In this document: in pieces, positions 27,379 through 41,215 of the stretch
Numbering within the stretch: position 1 is the first letter of the stretch
Layout of the letters: each line of letters begins with the position of its first letter
NCBI GenBank assembly: GCA_028688015.1
Contig: JAQTZB010000006.1
Span: forward strand, 176,739-240,738
Direction: 5' to 3'
From: Elusimicrobiales bacterium
GTDB taxonomy: Bacteria; Elusimicrobiota; Elusimicrobia; Elusimicrobiales; UBA9959
Length of the DNA: 64,000 bases
The notes under the pieces: generated by a model
Told to the model about the DNA's origin: nothing
Database searches by the model: none
The model's input: the letters and a program-made list of their open reading frames with translations, nothing else
Program-made: the position numbers and the translations under genes

Positions 27379-28722
27379 GTGCCGGACTTTTCGTCTGAAT
27401 TCAGCAGAAGCCTCCGTACCGCCGGCGTAGTCGGCGCCGGGGGCGCCGGCTTTCCCGCCTATATCAAGGCGCAGGGCCGGGCCGAGTACGCGCTGGTCAA
27501 CGCGGCCGAGTGCGAGCCGCTGCTGAAGAAAGACCAGAAGCTCCTCGAATATTTCCCGGAGAAGGTCTTCGACGGGTTGGACCTGCTGATGCGCGCGACG
27601 GGCGCCTCCAAAGGCGTCGTCGGCATCAAGAAAAAGCACGAGAAGATCATCCCGCGCCTTAAAGAGATAGCGAAGTCGCGCCGGAACGTTTCCGTCCTCG
27701 AAATGGGGGACTACTACCCCGCCGGGGACGAGCAGTGCCTCGTCTACGAGGCTACGGGACGGATAGTGCCGCCCGGCGGCATCCCGCTCGAAGTGGGCTG
27801 CGTGGTCAGCAACGTCGAAACCCTTTACAACGCCGCGTTCGCGCCGCGCCCGGTCACCGAGACTTTTATAACCGTCAACGGCGGGGTAAAGAAGCCCGCC
27901 ACCTTCCGCGTGCCGGTCGGAGTATCCTGGCGCGAGTGCGTGGAGCTGTGCGGCGGCTTTACCGTCAAAGACCCCGCGTATATAGACGGCGGCCCGATGA
28001 TGGGCAAGGTACAGACCGATTTCGGCCTGCCGGTGGTGAAAGCCTCCGCCGGCATCATAGTCCTGCCTAAAGAACACCCGCTGATACAGAAGAAGGCGCA
28101 GGGCCGCCCGACGTTCACCCGCATAGGCCGCTCGGCCTGCGACCAGTGCTCGTTCTGCACCGAGTTCTGCCCGCGCTACCTGCTGGGCCACAACGTGCAG
28201 CCGCACCGCGTGATGCGCACCATGCTCTTCGCCGGCGGTCCGGAGCACAAACTGCACAGCCAGTACGGCCTGCTGTGCTGCGAGTGCTCGCTCTGCTCGC
28301 TCTACTCCTGCCCCGAGGGCCTGCACCCGCGCGAGGCCTGCGTCTCCGCCAAGAGCGACCTGCGGGAACAGAAGATCGGCTTCAAGAATTCGCAGCTCAA
28401 TACCGGCAAGCGGCCGGAGGCGCACCCGGTGCGCGACTTCCGCAAGGTGCCGGTCTCCAAACTGGTGCGGCGCCTGGGCCTGGATGAGTATAACAAGGAC
28501 GCCCCGTGGAGCGACGCCGTCTATAAACCGTCCCGCGTTAAGATTTTAATGAGCCAGCATATCGGCGCGCAGTGCGTACCCTGCGTTAAAGAGGGGCAGC
28601 GGGTGGAGAAAGGCGCCGTGGTGGGGGACGTTCCTGCCGACAAGCTGGGCTGCCCGGTGCACGCGAGCGTCTCCGGCACGGTGGGTAAGGTCAACGAAAA
28701 GTACGTGGAGATAATCGCTTAG
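27379..28722 (+). CDS. pduS: PduS-type flavin/iron-sulfur NADH dehydrogenase of a microcompartment
   Basis: PduS is an RnfC-related protein that takes electrons from NADH and passes them through Fe-S clusters. The 447 residues match PduS in length and layout. The N-terminal VGAGGAGFPAY is the nucleotide/FMN region, and an SLBB-like section follows. Two ferredoxin-type motifs are present, CDQCSFCTEFCP and CCECSLCSLYSCP, with a C-terminal barrel-sandwich domain. The GTG start at 27379 has no clear Shine-Dalgarno and lies 7 bases after the aminotransferase. It sits next to a PduT-type shell protein, its expected partner. Confidence 0.9.
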   Translation: MPDFSSEFSRSLRTAGVVGAGGAGFPAYIKAQGRAEYALVNAAECEPLLKKDQKLLEYFPEKVFDGLDLLMRATGASKGVVGIKKKHEKIIPRLKEIAKSRRNVSVLEMGDYYPAGDEQCLVYEATGRIVPPGGIPLEVGCVVSNVETLYNAAFAPRPVTETFITVNGGVKKPATFRVPVGVSWRECVELCGGFTVKDPAYIDGGPMMGKVQTDFGLPVVKASAGIIVLPKEHPLIQKKAQGRPTFTRIGRSACDQCSFCTEFCPRYLLGHNVQPHRVMRTMLFAGGPEHKLHSQYGLLCCECSLCSLYSCPEGLHPREACVSAKSDLREQKIGFKNSQLNTGKRPEAHPVRDFRKVPVSKLVRRLGLDEYNKDAPWSDAVYKPSRVKILMSQHIGAQCVPCVKEGQRVEKGAVVGDVPADKLGCPVHASVSGTVGKVNEKYVEIIA

Positions 28723-28730
28723 GGTTCAAT

Positions 28731-29279
28731 ATGCTAAATGCTATAGGCGGCGTAGAACTTTCCAGCGTGGCCAAGGGCCTCGAAGCGGCGGACGCGATGC
28801 TGAAGACCGCCAGCGTCAAACTGCTGCTGTCGCGCTCCATCTGCCCCGGCAAGTACATCATCCTGGCGGCCGGGGACGTGGGCGACGTCAGCGCGGCGGT
28901 AGAGGCCGGCTCGGCCAAGGCCGCGCACGCGCTGGTGGATAGTTTCGTCATCCCTAACATCCACCCCGAGGTTTTCCCGGCCATAGAAGGCACCACCGTG
29001 GTGGAGGGCCTGGAGGCCCTGGGCATCATAGAGGCTTTTTCCGTTTCGGCGCTGGTGCAGGCGGCGGACGCCGCAGTAAAGGCCGCCCCGGTAAAACTGC
29101 TGGAGATCCGCCTGGCCATGGCGCTGGGCGGCAAGGCCTTCGTCACCCTGACCGGCCCGGTGGCCGCGGCCGACGCCGCAGTGGCCGCGGGCGCCGCGGT
29201 AGTGGCGAAAAAAGGCCTGCTGGTAGAGAAGGTGGTTATTCCCCAGCCCCGTCCCGAGCTGCTGCGGGAATTGATTTAG
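28731..29279 (+). CDS. pduT: BMC-T shell protein with Fe-S pore cysteine (PduT type)
   Basis: Trimeric tandem-BMC shell protein of 182 residues with two BMC domains (about 4-88 and 95-180). Cys38 in SRSICPGKY matches the Cys38 that holds the 4Fe-4S cluster on the threefold axis of Citrobacter PduT. NIHPEVFPAI at the domain junction is also PduT-like. It follows pduS by 8 bases; together they suggest electron transfer across the shell. Confidence 0.92.
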   Translation: MLNAIGGVELSSVAKGLEAADAMLKTASVKLLLSRSICPGKYIILAAGDVGDVSAAVEAGSAKAAHALVDSFVIPNIHPEVFPAIEGTTVVEGLEALGIIEAFSVSALVQAADAAVKAAPVKLLEIRLAMALGGKAFVTLTGPVAAADAAVAAGAAVVAKKGLLVEKVVIPQPRPELLRELI

Positions 29280-29322
29280 CGTATTATTTGTATAATCTTT
29301 TTGATATTTAAGGAGACCCAAA

Positions 29323-30102
29323 ATGGCCGCCAATAACAGGACCCCGATGATAGCCGGCAACTGGAAGATGCACATGACCGCCAAGGAGGCCGCCGACCTG
29401 GCCGCCGCCATGCGCAAAGGCCTGGACCCGGACCTCAAGCACGAAGTGCTGCTGGCGCCCACCTTTACCGCCCTGCACGCCGTCAACGCCGTTCTCGGCG
29501 GCTCCAAAATCTTCCTGTCCTCTCAGGATGTCTGCTGGGAAGAGAAAGGTGCCTTTACCGGCGCGGTCTCCCCGTCTCAGATCAAGGACGCGGGCTGCAC
29601 GCACGCCATCATCGGCCACTCCGAGCGCCGCAAGGTCTTCCTGGAGACCGACGAGGTCATCAATAAGAAGATGAAGGCCGCCATAAAGGCCGGTCTCGTC
29701 CCCGTGCTCTGCATCGGCGAGACGCTGGAGGAGCGCGAGAGCCAGAAGACCTATCGGGTGCTGGAGACGCAGCTCAACGGCGCGTTCGCCGGAATCACAG
29801 CCGCCGAGGCCAACAGAGTGGTCATCGCCTACGAGCCCGTCTGGGCCATCGGCACCGGCAAGACCGCCACTCCCGACCAGGCGCAGGACGCCCACGTTTT
29901 TGTCAGGAAGCAGATGGAGCGCATCTACGGCAAAGGCTACGCCGACGCCGTGCGCATCCTCTACGGCGGTTCAGTGAAGGCCGACAATATCGACGAGCTG
30001 ATGGCCCAGGCCGATATCGACGGCGCGCTGGTGGGCGGCGAGAGCCTGAAGGCCGACAAGTTCCTGCGCGTTATCCATTTTCAGGCGGTGCTGAGCAAAT
30101 AA
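29323..30102 (+). CDS. tpiA: Triosephosphate isomerase, encoded inside the BMC operon
   Basis: Interconverts glyceraldehyde-3-phosphate and dihydroxyacetone phosphate. The 259-residue protein has all catalytic parts: GNWKM, IIGHSERR, AYEPVWAIGTGK (Glu and loop 6) and LYGGSVKADNI for phosphate. AAGGAG lies 8 bases upstream. A TATAAT at 29291-29296 may be an internal promoter, but no well-spaced -35 is seen. There is no targeting helix at the N-terminus. Its place between pduT and pduL links it to the triose-phosphate released by DeoC. Confidence 0.95.
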   Translation: MAANNRTPMIAGNWKMHMTAKEAADLAAAMRKGLDPDLKHEVLLAPTFTALHAVNAVLGGSKIFLSSQDVCWEEKGAFTGAVSPSQIKDAGCTHAIIGHSERRKVFLETDEVINKKMKAAIKAGLVPVLCIGETLEERESQKTYRVLETQLNGAFAGITAAEANRVVIAYEPVWAIGTGKTATPDQAQDAHVFVRKQMERIYGKGYADAVRILYGGSVKADNIDELMAQADIDGALVGGESLKADKFLRVIHFQAVLSK

Positions 30103-30735
30103 ATGGACGAGCGGCTGCTGAAGGAGATACTCGAGGACCTCAAACTCCGTCAGGAGCGGTCCTCCCTGCCCGTACCCGTGGGCGTCTCCAACCGGCACGT
30201 CCACCTGACGAAGGAAGATTTCAAGACGCTCTTCGGCGCGGACGCCGACGACACGCAGCTCAAGGCGGTGAAGCAGCCGGGGCAGTACGCCTGCAACGAG
30301 CGGGTGACCGTGGAGGGGCCCAAGGGCGCCCTCAAGGACGTCAGGATGATAGGCCCGTACCGGAAGTACAGCCAGGTGGAAGTCTCGCTGGGCGACGCGC
30401 GCCGGCTGGGCGTGGAGCCGCCTATCCGCGACTCAGGAAAACTCGAGAGTTCCCCGGGCATCCGGCTGGTCGGGCCCAAGGGCTCCGTCACGCTGCGGCA
30501 GGGGGTCATCCTGTCCAAGCGGCATATCCATTTCAATCTGAAGGAAGGCGCGGCGTACAGGGTGAAGGACGGCCAGGAGGTGCGCGTGCTCTGCGGCCGC
30601 GGCACCGACCGGGAAACCATTTACGAGCGGGTGCTGTGCCGTGTCTCCGACGCCTACTCGCTGGAGCTGCACCTGGACGTGGAAGAGGCCAACGCCGCCG
30701 GCCTGAAGAACTGCGACCAGGCCTATATAGTTTGA
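30103..30735 (+). CDS. pduL: BMC phosphotransacylase PduL
   Basis: Converts acyl-CoA and phosphate to acyl-phosphate and recycles CoA inside the compartment. The 210-residue protein has two PduL domains and the zinc ligands His32/His34 (SNRHVHL), His141/His143 (SKRHIHF) and His190 (LELHLD). The first 18 residues (MDERLLKEILEDLKLRQE) form an amphipathic helix, the usual encapsulation peptide. Its ATG follows the tpiA stop directly. With the aldehyde dehydrogenase downstream it gives acetyl-phosphate for ATP formation. Confidence 0.93.
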   Translation: MDERLLKEILEDLKLRQERSSLPVPVGVSNRHVHLTKEDFKTLFGADADDTQLKAVKQPGQYACNERVTVEGPKGALKDVRMIGPYRKYSQVEVSLGDARRLGVEPPIRDSGKLESSPGIRLVGPKGSVTLRQGVILSKRHIHFNLKEGAAYRVKDGQEVRVLCGRGTDRETIYERVLCRVSDAYSLELHLDVEEANAAGLKNCDQAYIV

Positions 30736-30772
30736 TTTGGTATTTTTAGTCTAGTTTACGGAGGTAGCAAAC

Positions 30773-31057
30773 ATGGACGCACTCGGAATGATAGAAACCA
30801 AGGGCCTCGTGGCCTGCGTGGAAGCTGCAGACGCCGCGGTGAAAGCCGCCAACGTCAAGATAGTCGGCTACGAGAAGGTCGGCTCCGGCCTCGTGACCAT
30901 CCTTTTCCGCGGCGAAGTCGCCGCCTGCCGCGCCGCCTGCGACTCCGGCGCCGCCGCCGCCCAGAAGGTGGGCGAACTGGTCAGCGTGCACGTGATCCCG
31001 CAGCCGCACGGCGACCTGGAAGGCAAACTGCCGATCAGCGACGCCAAGAAAAAGTAA
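30773..31057 (+). CDS. BMC-H hexameric shell protein (PduA/EutM type), first copy
   Basis: A 94-residue single BMC domain with LGMIETKG at the start and the pore loop KVGSGL at 35-40, as in PduA. It forms the hexagonal facet tiles and a polar pore for small metabolites. The last 17 residues are a short charged extension. GGAGG precedes the ATG. A long cruciform-like repeat separates it from the next gene. Confidence 0.95.
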
Positions 31058-31060
31058 AAA

Positions 31061-31132
31061 TAGGGACAGCGCCCTATTCCCTGCCGGGAATAGGGGCTGT
31101 TCATAATCTTAGAGAACAGGGCGCTGTCCCTG
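31061..31132. repeat. REP-like cruciform between BMC-H and EutN genes
   Basis: AGGGACAGCGCCCT (31062-31075) and its exact complement (31118-31131) make a 14-bp outer stem. Inside are a 10-bp hairpin (31072-31081 with 31086-31095, loop TGCC) and a 6-bp hairpin (31097-31102 with 31114-31119). The inner hairpins compete with part of the outer stem, giving a three-way-junction alternative. It resembles REP/BIME elements moved by RAYT transposases; none is in the window. Confidence 0.75.
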
Positions 31133-31149
31133 TTTTCGGCGGAGGAAAG

Positions 31150-31458
31150 ATGCTATTCGCACGAGTAGTGGGTAACGTAGTCTGCACCCGCAAGGACGAC
31201 AAGCTCGTCGGCACCAAGCTGCTGATGGTGCAGCCGGTGGGCCTTGACGACAAGCCGCGCGGCAATACGCTGGTCGGCATCGACGCCGTCGGCGCCGGCA
31301 CCGGCGAGCTGGTGCTGCTGGTGCAGGGCTCCAGCGCCCGCCAGACCTCGAAGACCGAGAACACCCCGGTGGACTGCACGGTCTTCGCCATCGTGGACAC
31401 CGTGGAGAAGGACGGCAAGATCATCTTCAAGAAATCGGCCGGCAAACTGCAGGAATAG
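31150..31458 (+). CDS. BMC-P pentameric shell vertex protein (EutN/CcmL type), first copy
   Basis: A 102-residue EutN/CcmL-fold protein (LFARVVGNVVCTRKDDKLVG, then LLMVQPVG and GIDAVGAGTGELVL) that caps the shell vertices. GGCGGAGG precedes the ATG. It is the first of three BMC-P genes in the operon and the longest. Confidence 0.93.
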   Translation: MLFARVVGNVVCTRKDDKLVGTKLLMVQPVGLDDKPRGNTLVGIDAVGAGTGELVLLVQGSSARQTSKTENTPVDCTVFAIVDTVEKDGKIIFKKSAGKLQE

Positions 31459-31468
31459 GTAAAAGTTT

Positions 31469-32881
31469 ATGCCCCTTAGCGAAGAAGACCTGAGGAAGAT
31501 AGTGACTGAGGTCGTGCGTAACCTCGGGACGGCCCCCGCCGCCCCGGCGCAGGCTTCCGGCGGCCCGGTGTTCGACACCGTGGACGCCGCCGTGAGCGCG
31601 GCCGAGCAAGCCCAGCCCGTGTTCCAGGATCTGGGGCTGGTAGCGCGGGAAAAGATAATCGCCGCCATACGCGAAGTCTCCCGCGCCAACTCCCGCCGCT
31701 GGGCCGAGCTGGCCGTGGCCGAAACGGGCATGGGCCGGGTGGAAGACAAAGTTTTGAAGAACCAGGTCTGCATCGACGGGACCCCCGGCGTGGAAGACCT
31801 GCGCGCGGTGTCCTATACCGGAGACAAGGGCCTGACCCTGGTGGAATACGCGCCCTTCGGAGTGGTGGCCGCCATCACGCCCTCCACCAACGCCGTGGCT
31901 ACCATCATCAGCAACGCTATCGGCATCCTGGCCGCCGGCAACGCGGTGGTGTTCTCGCCTCATCCGGCCGCCAAGGGCTGCGTGGCCGACGCCGTGCGCG
32001 TGCTGGATAAAGCTATCATCGCGGCGGGCGGCCCCGCCAATTTGGTGACCACTATCGCCAAGCCCACGCAGGAAGCCACCAAACAGCTGCTGAGCCACCC
32101 CCGGACCAACATGAACATAGTGACCGGGGGGCCGGCCATAGTGAAAGTGGCCATGACCTCAGGCAAACCCTGCAAGACCATAGCCGCGGGCCCCGGCAAC
32201 CCGCCCGTGGTGGTGGACGAGACCGCCGTGTTCCCGGACTGCGCCCGCGAAATAATTTACGGCTGCGGCTTCGACAATAACGTGCTGTGCATCTCCGAGA
32301 AGGAAGTGATAGTGACCGAAGCCGCGCGCGCCCGCTTCCTGGAAGCCATGCGCTCCGACCCGCGCGCTTACGAGCTGTCCGGAGCCCAGATGGACCAGCT
32401 TTCCAAGCTCGCCATCCCCGAGCCGGGGCCTGAACCCAAGGTCAACCGCGACTTCATCGGCAAGAACCCGTCGGTGATAGCCAGGGCCATAGGCCTGAAC
32501 CTTTCCGACGACATCCGCGTGCTCTGGGCGGAAGTGCCCAACGACCACCCGTTCGTGCACACCGAGCAGCTGATGCCGGTGCTGCCCGTGACCGTGGCGA
32601 AAGACGTGGACGCCGCTATCGAGCTGGCCCGCCGCGCCGAGGGGAACAACCACCACAGCGCCGGGATGTATTCGACCAATATCAGGAACATGACCAAGAT
32701 GGGCCGGCGCATGGCTTGCTCCATCTTCGTCAAGAACGGCTGCACGCTGCACGGCCTGGGCCTCGGTGAGGGCTACGCCTCCATGTCCATCGGGACGCCT
32801 ACGGGCGATGGCATCACCAAGACCAGCCATTTTGTGCGACCGCTGCAGTGCAGCGTAGTCGGAGATCTCAGAATCGCTTAA
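31469..32881 (+). CDS. pduP: CoA-acylating aldehyde dehydrogenase (PduP/EutE type)
   Basis: Oxidises acetaldehyde to acetyl-CoA with NAD+ inside the compartment. The 470 residues contain the catalytic Cys274 in DNNVLCISE, the NAD-binding region (FGVVAAITPSTNAV) and the C-terminal GEGYASMSIGTPTGDG region. The N-terminus MPLSEEDLRKIVTEVVRNLG is an amphipathic helix followed by an Ala/Pro linker, a typical encapsulation peptide. It starts 11 bases after EutN. No alcohol dehydrogenase is present to regenerate NAD+. Confidence 0.95.
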   Translation: MPLSEEDLRKIVTEVVRNLGTAPAAPAQASGGPVFDTVDAAVSAAEQAQPVFQDLGLVAREKIIAAIREVSRANSRRWAELAVAETGMGRVEDKVLKNQVCIDGTPGVEDLRAVSYTGDKGLTLVEYAPFGVVAAITPSTNAVATIISNAIGILAAGNAVVFSPHPAAKGCVADAVRVLDKAIIAAGGPANLVTTIAKPTQEATKQLLSHPRTNMNIVTGGPAIVKVAMTSGKPCKTIAAGPGNPPVVVDETAVFPDCAREIIYGCGFDNNVLCISEKEVIVTEAARARFLEAMRSDPRAYELSGAQMDQLSKLAIPEPGPEPKVNRDFIGKNPSVIARAIGLNLSDDIRVLWAEVPNDHPFVHTEQLMPVLPVTVAKDVDAAIELARRAEGNNHHSAGMYSTNIRNMTKMGRRMACSIFVKNGCTLHGLGLGEGYASMSIGTPTGDGITKTSHFVRPLQCSVVGDLRIA

Positions 32882-32892
32882 GGAGCTTTAAT

Positions 32893-33441
32893 ATGCAGGC
32901 TAACATAGCCGTGGGTTTGATGGAAACTTCCTCTATAGCCAAAGGCGTAGAGGCCCTGGACGCCATGTGCAAGGCCGCCGGCGTAAAGCCGGAGGTGCAC
33001 CAGGCTATCTCCAAGGGAAAATATATCATAGTGATCTCCGGCCCCCTCGGCGAGGTGGAATCCTCCCTGGCCAAGGGCGCTGAGATAGCCGGCAATACGG
33101 TGATAGCCCGCCACCTCATCCGCAATATCCACTCCGGCGCGCTGGCCGCGCTCAACAAGAAAGTAAAGCCCGCCAAGATCGAAGCCGTGGGCATCGTCGA
33201 GACCAAAGAGGCGCTGCCGGCCCTGTTCGCCGCCGACGCGGCCGCGAAGGCCGCCTTCGTGCACGTGGCCGAGGTCAACACCGGCAAGGGCATAGGCGGC
33301 AAAGGCTACTTCACCGTGGTCGGCGAACCCGGCGCGGTGCGCACGGCGGTTTCCGCCGGAGTTAAGGCCATCGGCGAAGACGCGGTAGTCAGCCGCATAG
33401 TGATACCCAACGCGCACGAGCACCTCGGCGCTGCAATTTAA
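32893..33441 (+). CDS. BMC-T shell protein without cluster cysteine, second copy
   Basis: A 182-residue tandem BMC protein (start at MQANIAVGLMETSSIAKG, AGGAG upstream). It is related to the PduT-like protein of the same operon, but the Cys38-equivalent is Ser in AISKGKY. A metabolite-pore or purely structural trimer is more likely than an electron conduit. It directly precedes the first structured leader element. Confidence 0.9.
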   Translation: MQANIAVGLMETSSIAKGVEALDAMCKAAGVKPEVHQAISKGKYIIVISGPLGEVESSLAKGAEIAGNTVIARHLIRNIHSGALAALNKKVKPAKIEAVGIVETKEALPALFAADAAAKAAFVHVAEVNTGKGIGGKGYFTVVGEPGAVRTAVSAGVKAIGEDAVVSRIVIPNAHEHLGAAI

Positions 33442-33443
33442 AG

Positions 33444-33591
33444 GAACTCCTCTTAGGAGGGGTTCAGCGAAGCGACGACGAAACGGGGAACCTTAGGTTC
33501 CCCTTGTGGAGCACCGGGACCGCACCTTGTAAGTCCCGGCGATAATCGCCCCGAGCGAATAGCGAGGGGTGCGACGAGAAGGAGAGAATTT
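33444..33591 (+). ncRNA. Structured leader element A before rpiB-like gene
   Basis: The element holds a 9-bp hairpin with loop TTAG (33444-33465), an 8-bp perfect hairpin with loop TTA (33485-33503), and a 7-bp hairpin (33514-33539), then a variable part. It ends in GCGACGAGAAGGAGA, the Shine-Dalgarno of the rpiB-like gene. Both conserved hairpins and the flanks GTTCAGCGAAGC and GACGACGAAA recur at 35605-35766. The first hairpin's 3' arm contains a Shine-Dalgarno-like AGGAGG. It could act in mRNA processing or translation control. Confidence 0.55.
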
Positions 33592-34038
33592 ATGAGAATA
33601 GTCATAGGCGCGGATCACGCTGGTTTCGACGCTAAGGAGCGGCTCAAGAAGTTCCTGCAGAAGCTCGGTCACGACGTCACCGACTTCGGCTGTTATTCCG
33701 TCGAGCCGGTGGACTTCCCGGACATCGCGCTGCTGGTCAGCGAGGCGGTGCGCCGCAAGGAATTCGACAAGGCCGTGCTGGTGGACGGTTTTAACGGCGC
33801 GATGCCGCTGGCCGCCAACAAGGTGCACGGCATCCGCGCGGTGGCCGCCTACGACACCATCTCCGCCCGCTTCGCCGCGGCGCACGAGGACTGCAATGTG
33901 CTGTGCCTGGGCGGCAAGACGCACGGCGAACTGGCTTTAGAGGAGATGATCAAGGTCTGGCTTAACACCCCTTTCGAGGGCGGCAAGTATCAGAAGCGGC
34001 TGGACAAGATCACCGCGATAGAGCAGAAGTGCTATTGA
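33592..34038 (+). CDS. RpiB/LacAB-family protein with altered active site
   Basis: The 148-residue protein aligns end to end with ribose-5-phosphate isomerase B. GADHAG (Asp8, His9), AANKVHGIRAV and His98 are kept. The catalytic-base segment, normally CGTGIGMS, reads DGFNGAMP: Cys65 becomes Asp65, the anion-binding GTG is changed, and the Glu used by mycobacterial RpiB is missing. Ribose-5-phosphate isomerisation is therefore uncertain. Because 2-deoxyribose-5-phosphate has no C2 hydroxyl it cannot be isomerised the usual way, but ring opening for DeoC is possible (inference). GAAGGAGA precedes the ATG; no targeting helix is seen. Confidence 0.85.
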   Translation: MRIVIGADHAGFDAKERLKKFLQKLGHDVTDFGCYSVEPVDFPDIALLVSEAVRRKEFDKAVLVDGFNGAMPLAANKVHGIRAVAAYDTISARFAAAHEDCNVLCLGGKTHGELALEEMIKVWLNTPFEGGKYQKRLDKITAIEQKCY

Positions 34039-34039
34039 A

Positions 34040-34339
34040 ATGAAACAGGCCAAGGTCATAGGAAGGGTTTTCTGCTCCCGCCAGTGCTGCGGCATGGAGA
34101 GCAAGACCCTGCTTTTGATCCAGCCGCTCGATTGGGAGACGGATAAACCTTCCGGCGACCCGCTGGTAGCCGGTGACACCGTAGGCGCCGGGGCCGGGGA
34201 GACCGTGTTCTTCGTGGCCTCGCGCGAGGCAATACTGGCTTTCGAGGGCTGGGAAGGCGAGACCGCGACGGGGGCGGCCCCGCCGCCGGTGGACGCCGCG
34301 ATAGTGGGGATCATAGACGGCAAGAGCTTCAGGCAATAA
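34040..34339 (+). CDS. BMC-P pentameric shell vertex protein, second copy
   Basis: A 99-residue EutN-fold protein (AKVIGRVFC, LLLIQPLDWETD, GDTVGAGAGETVFFVASREA). The loop SRQCCGMES has a Cys pair not found in the other two copies. Its ATG follows the rpiB-like stop by one base. Confidence 0.9.
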   Translation: MKQAKVIGRVFCSRQCCGMESKTLLLIQPLDWETDKPSGDPLVAGDTVGAGAGETVFFVASREAILAFEGWEGETATGAAPPPVDAAIVGIIDGKSFRQ

Positions 34340-34343
34340 ATTT

Positions 34344-34616
34344 ATGTTCGTAGCTAAAGTCATCGGGAATGTCTGGGCCACCCGCAAGCACGGGGGGCTG
34401 AAGAACGCCACCATGCTGCTGGTCAGGCCGCTGGGCGCCGACGGCAAGCTCACGGGCGAGGCGCAGCTGGTCATAGACAACCAGGGCGCCGGCCCCGGCG
34501 ACACCGTGCTGATCGTGGACGAGGGCGGCTCCGCCCGCAAGATCCTGAAAAATTCAAAAGCGCCGGTGCGGACCGTGGTAGCCGGCATAGTGGACAAGGT
34601 TCATTTAGGAGAGTGA
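34344..34616 (+). CDS. BMC-P pentameric shell vertex protein, third copy
   Basis: A 90-residue EutN-fold protein ([37 protein letters not shown]). It starts 4 bases after the second copy and its stop overlaps an alternative GTG of deoC. It is the most compact of the three and closest to canonical EutN. Confidence 0.92.
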
Positions 34617-34618
34617 CT

Positions 34619-35599
34619 ATGAACGACGACGATATAAAGAAAATAGCGGCCGAAGTGGCCAGGATCATGAAGGCCGGCGGCCAGGCCGCCCCCCGGCAGA
34701 GCCTGGGCGATTCGGTCAGCATCGGCTCCGCCGGTAAAGTCTTTCAGCGCCCGCTGGTGAACCAGCCGGCCGCCTCCGAAAAGAAGCCCTGCTCCGGGCA
34801 GGGCGACTGCCGCCTGGAAGAAAATACCTGCAGCTCCTCCTGCCAGAGCTGCAACCCGCTGAATAAATACACTCCGCAGCAGATCAAGGCCAGCGCCGAC
34901 CGCGTGAGTTTCTGCAACCCCAACGAGTCCAGCTCGTCGATAGCGGGCATGATAGACCACACCCTGCTCAAGGCCAACGCCACGCAGGAGGAAATAGGCA
35001 AGCTCTGCGAGGAGGCCCGCAAGTACCGCTTCGCCTCCGTCTGCGTGAACCCCGGCTATGTGGCTCTCGCCAGCCGCCTGCTGCGCGGCTCGTCCGTGAT
35101 GGTCTGCACCGTCATCGGCTTCCCGCTGGGCTCCACCACCCCGACGGTAAAAGCCATCGAGGCCCGCGACGCCATCGCCAACGGCGCCGACGAGATCGAC
35201 ATGGTCATCAATATCGGAGCGCTCAAAAGCGGCAACGACCAGCTGGTGCTGGACGATATCAAAGCTGTGCGCGACGCCACGCGCGGCAAATGCCTTAAGG
35301 TCATCCTGGAGACTTCGTACCTGACCAAGGACGAGAAGGTGCGCGCCTGCCGGATGAGCAAGCAGGCCCAGGCCGACTTCGTGAAGACGTCCACAGGCTT
35401 CGGGTCCGGCGGGGCCACGCCCGAGGACATCGCGCTGATGCGGGAGACCGTGGGCCCCGAGATGGGCGTGAAAGCTTCCGGCGGCATAAAGAACGCGGAG
35501 GTGGCCGCGGCCATGATCAAGGCCGGCGCCACGCGCCTGGGCACGAGCGCCAGCATCGCCATAGTTTCCGGCGGCGAGGCCGCCAAAGGGCAGTATTGA
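34619..35599 (+). CDS. deoC: Deoxyribose-phosphate aldolase with encapsulation helix and Cys-rich linker
   Basis: Cleaves 2-deoxyribose-5-phosphate to acetaldehyde and glyceraldehyde-3-phosphate, the proposed entry reaction of this BMC. The ATG at 34619 has AGGAG upstream; a GTG at 34613 is less likely. Residues 1-20 ([20 protein letters not shown]) are an amphipathic targeting helix. Residues 21-108 form a linker with six Cys (58, 64, 71, 75, 78, 99) that ordinary DeoC (about 220-260 residues) lacks. The catalytic domain carries Asp194, Lys227 and the Schiff-base Lys256 in FVKTSTGF. The linker could bind a metal or cluster, or form disulfides. Confidence 0.94.
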
Positions 35600-35604
35600 A
35601 TAAA

Positions 35605-35766
35605 GAACTCCTCTTAGGAGGGGTTCAGCGAAGCCTGAGCCGTAAGGCGAAGGCGCAGCGACGACGAAATGGGGAACCTTAGGTTCCCCTTGTAGAACAC
35701 CCGGCCGCCGAAGGCCGGGCCGCCTAATCGGTCCGCCGAAGGCGGATGCGACAGAGAAGGAGACAT
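35605..35766 (+). ncRNA. Structured leader element B before second BMC-H gene
   Basis: It repeats the two conserved hairpins of element A (35605-35626 and 35671-35689). Between them is a 25-base insert with a small GCC-GTAA-GGC hairpin. Two G/C hairpins follow (35700-35719 and 35732-35746), and the same ending, GCGAC...GAAGGAGA, forms the Shine-Dalgarno. The hairpins vary in sequence between the copies but their positions are kept, which suggests a conserved RNA structure. Confidence 0.55.
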
Positions 35767-36060
35767 ATGTCAGAACCTAAAGAAGCGCTGGGAATGATAG
35801 AGACCAAGGGTTTCATCGGCATGATCGAAGCCTCCGACGCCATGAGCAAGGCCGCCAAGGTGCGCCTGCTCGGCTACGAGAAGATCGGCTCCGGCTACAT
35901 GACCACGCTGTGCGTGGGCGAAGTGGGCGCCGTGCGCGCCGCAGTGGAAGCCGGCGCGGCCTCGGCCCAGAAAGTCGGAGAGCTCGTCGGGATGCACGTC
36001 ATACCGCGCCCCTCGGACGACCTGGACAAGTATCTGGCCAAGATCTCGGTAAAGCTTTGA
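35767..36060 (+). CDS. BMC-H hexameric shell protein, second copy
   Basis: A 97-residue single BMC domain ([20 protein letters not shown]) starting at the ATG with GAAGGAGA upstream; a longer frame from 35746 lacks a ribosome site. The pore loop is KIGSGY (39-44), with Tyr where the first copy has Leu, so the pore lining may differ. It is the last shell gene of the operon. Confidence 0.94.
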
Positions 36061-38851: not shown

Positions 38852-40042
38852 CTAGATTATGCCCAGTTCCTTGCCGCACTTGCGGAACTTTTCCACGGCG
38901 ACCGTCAGGTTTTCCAGGGTGTGGCCCGCGGTCACTATGGTCCGCAGCCGCTCCTTACCCTTGGGCACCGTCGGGAAGCCCAGCGGCAGCGCAAAGACGC
39001 CTTCCTCGAACAGGCGCTGGGACAGCGCCTTGGCCTTTACAGGGTCGCCTATCATCACGGGGGTGATGGGGGTGACGGACTCGCCGGTGTTGAAGCCGGC
39101 TTTCTTCATCTCTTCCTTGAAGAAATTGGTGTTATCCCAGAGCCGCTTGAGGTACTGCGGCTCGGTGAGCAGGATGTCGAGCACCGCCAGGCAGGAGGCA
39201 GCCACCGACGGCGGCTGCGAGCTGGAGAACAGGAACGGCCGGGCCACCGAGCCCAGGTAATCGCGCAGGTCCTGCGTGGTGGCGGCGTAGCCGCCTACGG
39301 CCGCGAAGGCCTTGGACAGCGTGCCGATCTGGATCTCTACCTGGCCGTCCAGTCCGAAGTGGCTCACGGTGCCGCGGCCTTCCTTGCCTATTACGCCGGA
39401 GGCGTGCGCGTCGTCCACCATGACGAACGCGCCGTACTTGTGCGCGGTGGCGACGACCTCGTCCAGATTGGCGATGTCGCCGTCCATGGAGAACACGCCG
39501 TCGGTCACCACCATCTTGCGGCGGGCCTTGCGGGCCTCGGGGCTCTCCAGGATCTCGGTCAGGTGCTTGATGTCCTTGTGGCGGTAGATCTTGCGGGGGG
39601 ACTTGGCCAGGCGCGCGCCGTCTATGATGGAGGCGTGGTTGAGCTCGTCGGAGATCAGCAGGTCCTCCTCGGAGGACATCAGCGACTGGCAGACGGCCAC
39701 ATTGGAGGTGAAGCCGGACTGGAACAGGATGGAGGCCTCGGAGTGCTTGAAGGCCGCGAACTTCTCTTCCAGCTCGGTGTGCAGCGACATGGTGCCGATG
39801 ATCGTCCGCACTGCGGCCGAGCCGATGCCGTATTTCTCTACCGCGGCTATGGCCGCCTTCTTCACCTTCGGGTTGTCGGCCAGCGCCAGGTAGTTGTTGG
39901 AGGTGAGGTTGATGACCTCTTTGCCGTCTATGACAGAGACGGGGGCCTGGGCCGACTGGAGCACGCGGGGCTTGAGCAGGCGGTTCTCGCTTTTCAGCTT
40001 GGCCACCTCTTCGGCGGCGAATTTCAGCGTATCGAAAGACAT
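38852..40042 (-). CDS. kbl: Glycine C-acetyltransferase / 2-amino-3-ketobutyrate CoA ligase
   Basis: Alpha-oxoamine synthase that interconverts 2-amino-3-ketobutyrate plus CoA with glycine plus acetyl-CoA. The 396-residue protein shows the family motifs SNNYLALADNPKV, DELNHASIIDG, VDDAHASGVIG and the PLP lysine Lys244 in TLSKAFAAVGG. It lies 15 bases after the Tdh-like gene, the classical kbl-tdh pairing. Because that Tdh-like protein lacks its catalytic zinc ligands, the true substrate of the pair is open. Confidence 0.93.
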   Translation of the reverse strand: MSFDTLKFAAEEVAKLKSENRLLKPRVLQSAQAPVSVIDGKEVINLTSNNYLALADNPKVKKAAIAAVEKYGIGSAAVRTIIGTMSLHTELEEKFAAFKHSEASILFQSGFTSNVAVCQSLMSSEEDLLISDELNHASIIDGARLAKSPRKIYRHKDIKHLTEILESPEARKARRKMVVTDGVFSMDGDIANLDEVVATAHKYGAFVMVDDAHASGVIGKEGRGTVSHFGLDGQVEIQIGTLSKAFAAVGGYAATTQDLRDYLGSVARPFLFSSSQPPSVAASCLAVLDILLTEPQYLKRLWDNTNFFKEEMKKAGFNTGESVTPITPVMIGDPVKAKALSQRLFEEGVFALPLGFPTVPKGKERLRTIVTAGHTLENLTVAVEKFRKCGKELGII

Positions 40043-40057
40043 GTTTTTTCTCCTTAT

Positions 40058-41092
40058 TTAAGGGGTCAGGATTATCTTGCCGCACTTCGTGTCCTTCGAG
40101 TTGATGAGGTCGAAGGCTTTTTTGAAATCCTTGAAGGCGAAGCGGTGCGTCACTGCGGGGCGCGGGTTGACGGCCCCGGACTTCAGCAGACTTTCCATCT
40201 TGTACCAGCTGCGGAAGATCTCGCGGCCGGCCACGCCTTCCAGGCGGATGCCGCGCTTCACGATGTCGCCGGCGTAGTCCAGGCTCAGGTCGGAGGCGGG
40301 CAGGCCGAAGGCCACGAAGCGCCCGCCGGGGCGCAGCGCCTTCAGGCCGAGCGCCACGGCCTTGGCGCCGCCGCTCATCTCTATCACGGCGTCGGCGCCC
40401 TCGGGGCAGAGCTTGGCTATCTTGGCCAGGCAGTCGGCCCCGGCCGCCGGGTCTATGGCCGTGCAGGCGCCCATCTTCACCGCCAGCTTGCGGCGGTAGG
40501 GGGAGGGATCCAGCGCTATGACGCGCTTGGCTCCGGCGGCCTTGGCGATGCCGGCCGCGAACAGGCCGTGCGGGGTGCAGCCGGAGACGATCAGCGAGCG
40601 GCCCACCAGGTCCTCGTTCAGCACGGCGTGCACCGCGCTGCCGAAGGGCTGCATGACGGCGCCGACGTCCTTGAGGGAGTCGTCGGTGTGCTTCCACGCG
40701 CAGCGGGCCGGCACTACGGCGTATTCGGCGAAGCCGCCCGGCACGTCGCGGCCGATGACCTTCAGGTTCTGGCAGATGTGGCGCTGGTCGTTGCGGCACT
40801 GGCCGCAGACGCCGCAGAAGATGTGCGACTCGACCGAGACGAAGTCGCCTTTCGCGAAGCCCTTGGCCTGCGTGCCGATCTCCACCACCTCGCCGCAGAA
40901 TTCCTGGCCGAAGACGAAGGGCAGGGCCGGGGCGGCGCAGTCGGGGCCTGCGGAATTGTAGATCGCCAGGTCGCCCGGACTGATAGAGGCCGCGGTGACG
41001 CGGATCAGCAGGTCGTCCTTGGTTATTTCCGGCACGGCGGCGTCGCGGTAGCTGGCGCCGCGGGCGCAGGATGTCTTTACTATCGCTTTCAT
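40058..41092 (-). CDS. Threonine-dehydrogenase-like MDR protein lacking the catalytic zinc ligands
   Basis: The 344-residue protein aligns with E. coli threonine dehydrogenase end to end. The structural-zinc cysteines (CGVCGQCRNDQRHIC) and the NAD Rossmann domain are kept. The catalytic site is not: Cys38 is Ser38, Thr40 is Gly, His43 is Ala, and the GHE motif is GQE (His63 to Gln63). AAGGAG precedes the ATG at 41092. Threonine oxidation is therefore doubtful; a zinc-independent reductase or a degraded Tdh are alternatives. Confidence 0.85.
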   Translation of the reverse strand: MKAIVKTSCARGASYRDAAVPEITKDDLLIRVTAASISPGDLAIYNSAGPDCAAPALPFVFGQEFCGEVVEIGTQAKGFAKGDFVSVESHIFCGVCGQCRNDQRHICQNLKVIGRDVPGGFAEYAVVPARCAWKHTDDSLKDVGAVMQPFGSAVHAVLNEDLVGRSLIVSGCTPHGLFAAGIAKAAGAKRVIALDPSPYRRKLAVKMGACTAIDPAAGADCLAKIAKLCPEGADAVIEMSGGAKAVALGLKALRPGGRFVAFGLPASDLSLDYAGDIVKRGIRLEGVAGREIFRSWYKMESLLKSGAVNPRPAVTHRFAFKDFKKAFDLINSKDTKCGKIILTP

Positions 41093-41118
41093 CGTGGAAC
41101 TCCTTAGAAAACTTGTGC

Positions 41119-41135
41119 GGCGGGCGCTGCCCGCC
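41119..41135. other. Hairpin in the leader of the Tdh-like gene
   Basis: GGCGGGC and GCCCGCC form a 7-bp stem with a 3-base loop, followed by AT-rich DNA that probably holds divergent promoters for the Tdh-like gene and the DUF4912 gene. Confidence 0.45.
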
Positions 41136-41215
41136 AATTACTATCATATAAAATAAAAGCGGCTGAAAAAATATTCTTAAAACGCCCGGAAAATTTAGTA
41201 AATTATAAGTGCGTT

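Follow-up and report, generated by a model that had tools for sequence, protein, structure and literature searches.

Background

The closest described counterpart of the locus reported here is the SPU microcompartment. In the excerpts of two surveys used here (Axen 2014, PMC4207490; Sutter 2021, PMC8217296), this compartment is proposed to degrade 2-deoxyribose-5-phosphate (dR5P), its PF02502 protein is treated as an RpiB-type isomerase, and the missing catalytic Cys goes unmentioned. Our search of the open literature found nothing on the active site of the SPU PF02502 protein.

In RpiB, the Cys65 equivalent is the base that removes the proton from C2, a Thr moves the proton from O2 to O1, and His102, corresponding to His98 in the present numbering, is proposed to protonate the ring oxygen O4; replacement of the Cys by Ser or Ala inactivates known RpiBs (PMC4783025). 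M. tuberculosis RpiB uses Glu75 as the base (PMC3755991). In the related LacAB, the distance between Cys65 and O1 of the product is 3.3 A, and Thr67 is in contact with both O1 and O2. LacAB has a single active site at the LacA-LacB interface, compared with two in RpiB; LacB contributes residue 65 of this site, and residue 65 of LacA is not listed in it (PMC3755991).

The operon and its genome setting

The window, i.e. the whole stretch of 64,000 nucleotides of Elusimicrobiales DNA that was analysed, contains an operon at 27379-36060 with shell genes, DeoC and an RpiB-like gene (Table 1). Since BMC shell genes, a PF01791 DeoC and a PF02502 protein, the defining set of the SPU type, occur together in one locus, the operon is an SPU-type (DeoC) microcompartment. 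The acylating aldehyde dehydrogenase and the triosephosphate isomerase are expected to take the acetaldehyde and the glyceraldehyde-3-phosphate, respectively, that are made by DeoC. The true start of the second tandem-BMC protein may be further in, because its listed start overlaps the upstream gene. By eye, the 150-base gap ahead of the RpiB-like gene (33442-33591) appears rich in inverted repeats, and the genes downstream of the operon on the reverse strand (38852-41137) resemble 2-amino-3-ketobutyrate CoA ligase and threonine dehydrogenase.

Table 1. Position and basis of assignment of the features in the window
Feature	Position	Strand	Basis
PduS/RnfC-like electron-transfer protein	27379..28722	+	profile matches
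Tandem-BMC shell protein 1	28731..29279	+	PF00936, two stretches
Triosephosphate isomerase (TPI)	29323..30102	+	PF00121; TIGR00419 above cut-off
PduL-type phosphotransacylase	30103..30735	+	PF06130; NF011652 above cut-off
BMC-H shell protein 1	30773..31057	+	PF00936
BMC-P vertex protein 1	31150..31458	+	PF03319
Acylating aldehyde dehydrogenase	31469..32881	+	NF011927, 570 vs cut-off 403 bits
Tandem-BMC shell protein 2	32848..33441	+	PF00936, two stretches
Asp65-type RpiB-family protein, 148 aa, without encapsulation peptide	33592..34038	+	translation, profile matches, AlphaFold model
Asp8-His9, kept	33613..33618	+	alignment; invariant in all Asp types
Active-site loop 65-72, DGFNGAMP replacing CGTGIGMS	33784..33807	+	translation, alignment
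His98 (RpiB ring-opening acid), kept	33883..33885	+	alignment; role from PMC4783025
BMC-P vertex protein 2	34040..34339	+	EutN/CcmL-family matches
BMC-P vertex protein 3	34344..34616	+	EutN/CcmL-family matches
DeoC (deoxyribose-phosphate aldolase), N-terminal encapsulation-peptide-like helix and Cys-rich linker	34613..35599	+	TIGR00126, 297 vs cut-off 117 bits; alignment
BMC-H shell protein 2	35746..36060	+	PF00936

The genome carries a separate Cys-type RpiB elsewhere (G000:C51; L001), which excludes the window protein as a replacement of the housekeeping enzyme. Of 88 genomes of the same phylum that gave a strong match, 86 gave a second one as well, these second copies being read only in part. 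The named row closest to the window in the tree belongs to an Elusimicrobia bacterium, and the relatives belong to the Elusimicrobiota. A phosphopentomutase-like gene lies elsewhere in the genome, with a score of 208 bits that is below the curated cut-off of 256. No relatives of DeoA or DeoB were present in any Asp-type locus examined, and the neighbours suited to nucleoside or pentose use comprise a uridine-phosphorylase-family gene (L177) and ribokinase-family genes (L204, L247).

In SPU DeoC, the Cys-rich linker (Table 1; also L070, L106, L148, L190 and L210) connects the encapsulation-peptide-like helix at the N-terminus to the aldolase domain. Two of the linker cysteines are aligned in 8/8 rows, and the linker is a possible metal or Fe-S site. 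The DeoC frames of L106, L119, L058, L187, L042 and L043 are about 450-550 aa long with an extra N-terminal region before the Cys motif; in the L106 frame, Pfam detects only DeoC and, overlapping it, a weak match to NanE. Frames of class II (FucA/AraD-like) aldolases occur near DeoC-BMC genes of Chloroflexota (L177:19021-19854; L171:1476-2327, the latter by eye), and might represent a second aldehyde source.

The window protein

Both fold and sequence place the window protein in the RpiB/LacAB family. It matches PF02502 (RpiB/LacA/LacB family) with an E value of 7.7e-44, belongs to TIGR00689, and clears two broader NCBIfam cut-offs, but it does not reach the RpiB equivalog TIGR01120 (129.6 vs 138.65 bits). 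The AlphaFold model, built with 84 aligned relatives, has a pLDDT of 97.6, and its best PDB match is the RpiB of C. thermocellum (3he8; TM 0.98, 39% identity).

The translation bears out the first-pass annotation, which had read Asp65 (codon gac, 33784-33786) in place of the catalytic Cys and had listed Asp8, His9 and His98 as present, the latter three also being confirmed in the alignment. The same annotation had described the GTG loop as lost, which holds for Thr67 (now Phe) and Gly68 (now Asn); Gly66, however, is still there. Gly70 is also replaced, by Ala, and further substitutions are Asn99 to Glu, Arg132 to Lys and His133 to Tyr; Arg136 is retained beside His9 and His98. The protein thus has no known RpiB base, as it carries Asp65 instead of Cys65 and Met71 instead of Glu, position 71 being what we take to be the place of the M. 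tuberculosis Glu base in the numbering used here. In M. tuberculosis RpiB, His133 is the residue to which the part of O1-H base has been assigned as a proposal.

The window protein shares with LacA both Asp at position 65 and the retained His98, a resemblance on which the first-pass annotation was silent, as it was on the gene pairs described below. It stays below the LacA equivalogs PRK08621 (87.5 vs 164 bits) and TIGR01118 (64.8 vs 181.1 bits), and no LacB-type gene is adjacent to it in the window locus.

Asp65 in DeoC microcompartments

Loci were gathered from a same-phylum search, from a single scan across 84,980 species genomes, and from genomes sampled around relatives with the labels Chloroflexi, Planctomycetales, Armatimonadetes and Bacillota. 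The sampled genomes are assigned to phyla by the contig title of the genome at the centre of each sample. All counts refer to distinct sequences, and the locus searches used Asp-type queries. With Cys-type partners set aside, Asp65 is present in 144 of 144 RpiBs from the DeoC/BMC loci of six phyla; 14 of these have an adjacent Cys-type partner and 130 do not. Cys65 is found in 44 of 44 stand-alone RpiBs away from such loci. This is the outcome that the first-pass annotation had predicted for RpiBs of DeoC-BMC loci; its contrary case, a change unique to the window sequence, is not what the alignment contains, and fixation across six phyla also excludes a private mutation or a sequencing error. 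BMC genes, DeoC or both accompany each of the 144 genes in its locus; for ten of them, the stretch examined has DeoC and no shell gene. Cys-type genes occur in DeoC/BMC loci 14 times, only as partners beside an Asp-type gene, and the Asp65 sequences outside the 144 are those of LacA only. Asp65 is therefore confirmed as a mark of the DeoC-microcompartment RpiB in each lineage examined.

Because Asp-type queries could bias the locus searches, we also ran a search that started from DeoC. In a 249-genome sample of the phylum Bacillota, Asp65 was present in 11/11 SPU DeoC loci with enough upstream sequence, and loci with only a Cys type numbered 0; the DeoC locus of L226, which lies near a contig end, was left out of judgement. 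In the phylum of genome G304, the same search detected no BMC-linked DeoC in the short stretches covered.

No alignment column other than 65 has a single residue throughout both Asp clades and a different one in ordinary RpiB. The Asp types have Asp8, His9, Asp41, His98, Asn102 and Arg136 as invariant residues, a conservation that argues against simple decay into a pseudoenzyme. Thr67 is absent from 130/130 unpaired Asp types, which have Phe (70), Ala (52), Ile (5) or Val (3) at this position; Thr or Ser occupies it in 43 of the 44 free Cys types, and Thr67 is kept in 10 of the 14 Asp types that are paired with a Cys partner. Position 99 is Asp or Glu in the clade of the window protein, and Asn99 is retained in the other Asp clade (Chloroflexota/Bacillota/Armatimonadota/Planctomycetota). 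Across the 144 Asp types position 71 is Ser, Val or Met, which is not acidic and hence excludes a base of the Glu75 type as in M. tuberculosis RpiB.

In Chloroflexota and Planctomycetota, the N-terminus of the Asp types usually resembles, by eye, an encapsulation peptide and leads into a short conserved stretch, which suggests that the protein is carried inside the shell in these two phyla. The translation of the window protein lacks an encapsulation peptide.

Gene pairs and phylogeny

Two neighbouring RpiB genes are found in many loci of Elusimicrobiota and in a genome of Caldiserica. Each Asp/Cys pair detected in these groups is on one strand, with the Asp type first and the Cys type second, and His98 and the two arginines are all present in the paired Cys types.

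In the best tree, the Asp types form two clades with the Cys types between them. Over the bootstrap range 2-3 changes to Asp65 were obtained, never one; the AU test, however, does not reject a single Asp clade (p 0.20), and for this reason we do not claim convergence of Asp65. LacA falls outside the clade of the window protein, and its placement next to the other Asp clade depends on a long branch.

Discussion

We tentatively propose, with a probability of roughly 0.4, that the Asp65-type protein may be a dR5P ring opener ("openase" or anomerase) that feeds DeoC. The protein would no longer be a ribose-5-phosphate isomerase, and would work alongside DeoC in the SPU microcompartment. We infer the substrate, the reaction, the part of Asp65 as base and the exact geometry as follows. 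The phosphate would be gripped by His9, Arg/Lys132 and Arg136, as in RpiB. His98 would act as the acid that gives a proton to the ring oxygen O4, and Asp65, sited where Cys65 touches O1, would accept the proton of the anomeric hydroxyl. The furanose would thereby open to the free aldehyde required for the Schiff base of DeoC, and in the unpaired forms the non-polar residue in place of Thr67 would face the C2 methylene.

The pattern of lost and kept residues supports, short of proof, the ring opening that the first-pass annotation had already suggested. Since 2-deoxyribose has no 2-hydroxyl, the isomerisation residues would be useless on it and Cys65 could be replaced; the residues that have been lost, Cys65 and Thr67, are those without use on a 2-deoxy substrate. 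The kept residues His9, His98 and Arg136 are those that would serve phosphate binding and ring opening. In addition, dR5P is 99.8% furanose, and the catalytic His with which phosphoglucose isomerase opens the ring is missing from DERA (PMC5975929).

The main objection to a ring opener is kinetic. Ribose-5-phosphate opens spontaneously at 40-100 per second; from these rates the opening of dR5P has been judged not to be rate-limiting for DERA, and DERA itself may open the ring (PMC5975929). Such fast opening weakens the need for a dedicated protein, although an opener could, as a matter of argument only, help in a shell with concentrated DeoC and scarce substrate. Several sequence features would also count against the proposal: Thr67 persists in most paired Asp types, the window protein has His133 changed to Tyr and Arg132 to Lys, and it lacks the encapsulation peptide, so that its encapsulation is only putative. 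LacA, whose Asp65 is outside the listed active-site residues, counts against it as well. The wider proposition, that RpiB-fold proteins of several phyla form a family of non-isomerase dR5P ring openers in DeoC microcompartments, with the change of Cys65 to Asp arising more than once in parallel, is somewhat less likely. If it is true, this would be, to our knowledge, the first anomerase with an RpiB fold and also the first to be packed in a bacterial microcompartment.

The best-surviving alternative, to which we give about half the weight of ring opening, is a non-catalytic pseudoenzyme in which the RpiB fold and phosphate site would hold or sense dR5P, or organise DeoC in the shell. The loss of Cys65 and Thr67 would fit such a role, given that Cys to Ser or Ala substitution kills known RpiBs (PMC4783025), as would the position of the gene beside DeoC or vertex-protein genes in most loci and the fused aldolase-isomerase protein of Marinimicrobia that is reported in an excerpt of the Axen survey (PMC4207490). 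Position 65 has not drifted, however, but is invariantly Asp; likewise invariant is His98, which is a ring-opening residue and not a published phosphate anchor.

Slightly less probable is that Asp65 would be a working general base in an isomerase of another aldose or ketose phosphate. A carboxylate base has a precedent in M. tuberculosis RpiB with its Glu75 (PMC3755991), the Chloroflexota/Bacillota/Armatimonadota/Planctomycetota clade retains Asn99, and further substrates are hinted at by the class II aldolase encoded close to a Chloroflexota locus. This reading has to contend with the disappearance of Thr67 from all unpaired Asp types, and with a window operon (DeoC, aldehyde dehydrogenase, phosphotransacylase, TPI) that contains no obvious user of a ketose product.

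The Asp type might instead be a LacA-like subunit that gives His98, Arg132 and Arg136 to an active site in which the Cys-type partner provides the loop with Cys65 and Thr67. Since LacA has Asp65 and LacB supplies residue 65 of the single interface site, a heteromer of the LacAB kind is possible for the paired loci, and the invariable same-strand, Asp-first order of the Elusimicrobiota and Caldiserica pairs, as well as the retention of Thr67 in paired vs none of the unpaired Asp types, would agree with it. The resemblance is nevertheless incomplete, because the Asp types keep His9, which the LacAs examined have lost, because most of their loci, including the window, have no Cys-type gene, and because the Cys partners, in which His98 and the two arginines are intact, do not resemble LacB. 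With LacA also outside the Asp clade of the window protein, we consider this arrangement improbable, a little more so than the preceding two.

Least credible is an ordinary RpiB that still converts ribose-5-phosphate to ribulose-5-phosphate despite a neutral Asp change, as excerpts of the surveys that name it RpiB assume (PMC8217296; PMC4207490) and as its fold and overall sequence would allow: a neutral change would not be 144/144 in these loci vs 0/44 elsewhere, characterised RpiBs cannot do without the Cys equivalent (PMC4783025), and the window genome has its own Cys-type RpiB.

The isomerase label of the SPU RpiB is doubtful, and the ribose-5-phosphate isomerase job usually assigned to it is probably wrong. 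If the isomerase base is absent throughout the SPU type, one step of the published pathway may be non-existent, and the real function of a signature enzyme has to be reconsidered. Asp65 offers a one-residue marker by which the RpiBs of DeoC microcompartments can be recognised, and the residue pattern makes the role of the enzyme directly testable by cheap recombinant assays.

Comparison with known systems

The window locus shares with the SPU microcompartment (Axen 2014; Sutter 2021) DeoC, the RpiB-family protein, the acylating aldehyde dehydrogenase, PduL, the shell proteins and TPI. With RpiB (3he8), the Asp-type protein has in common the fold and the phosphate-binding and ring-opening residues; it differs in having Asp for Cys65, in the loss of the loop residues Thr67 and Gly68 in the window protein, and in that Asp types are found only in DeoC/BMC loci. 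The likeness to LacA (LacAB, 4lfk) comprises Asp65, an aromatic residue 67, His98, both basic phosphate residues and, in some lineages, a Cys-type neighbour. Unlike the LacAs examined, the Asp-type protein keeps both His9 and Asn102, and the window has no LacB-like partner and fails the NCBIfam LacA cut-offs.

Two further systems resemble the proposed function rather than the protein. GalM-type mutarotases, which are another protein family, use a Glu/His base-acid pair (PMC5902678), comparable to the carboxylate base and His acid proposed here. Experiments have demonstrated that YhcH opens Neu5Ac for NanA, which is a Schiff-base aldolase (PMC8141875). The proposed logic is the same, namely an accessory opener of a cyclic sugar for a co-encoded Schiff-base aldolase, but YhcH is a DUF386 metalloprotein with an experimentally established role, whereas the Asp-type RpiB is a putative opener.
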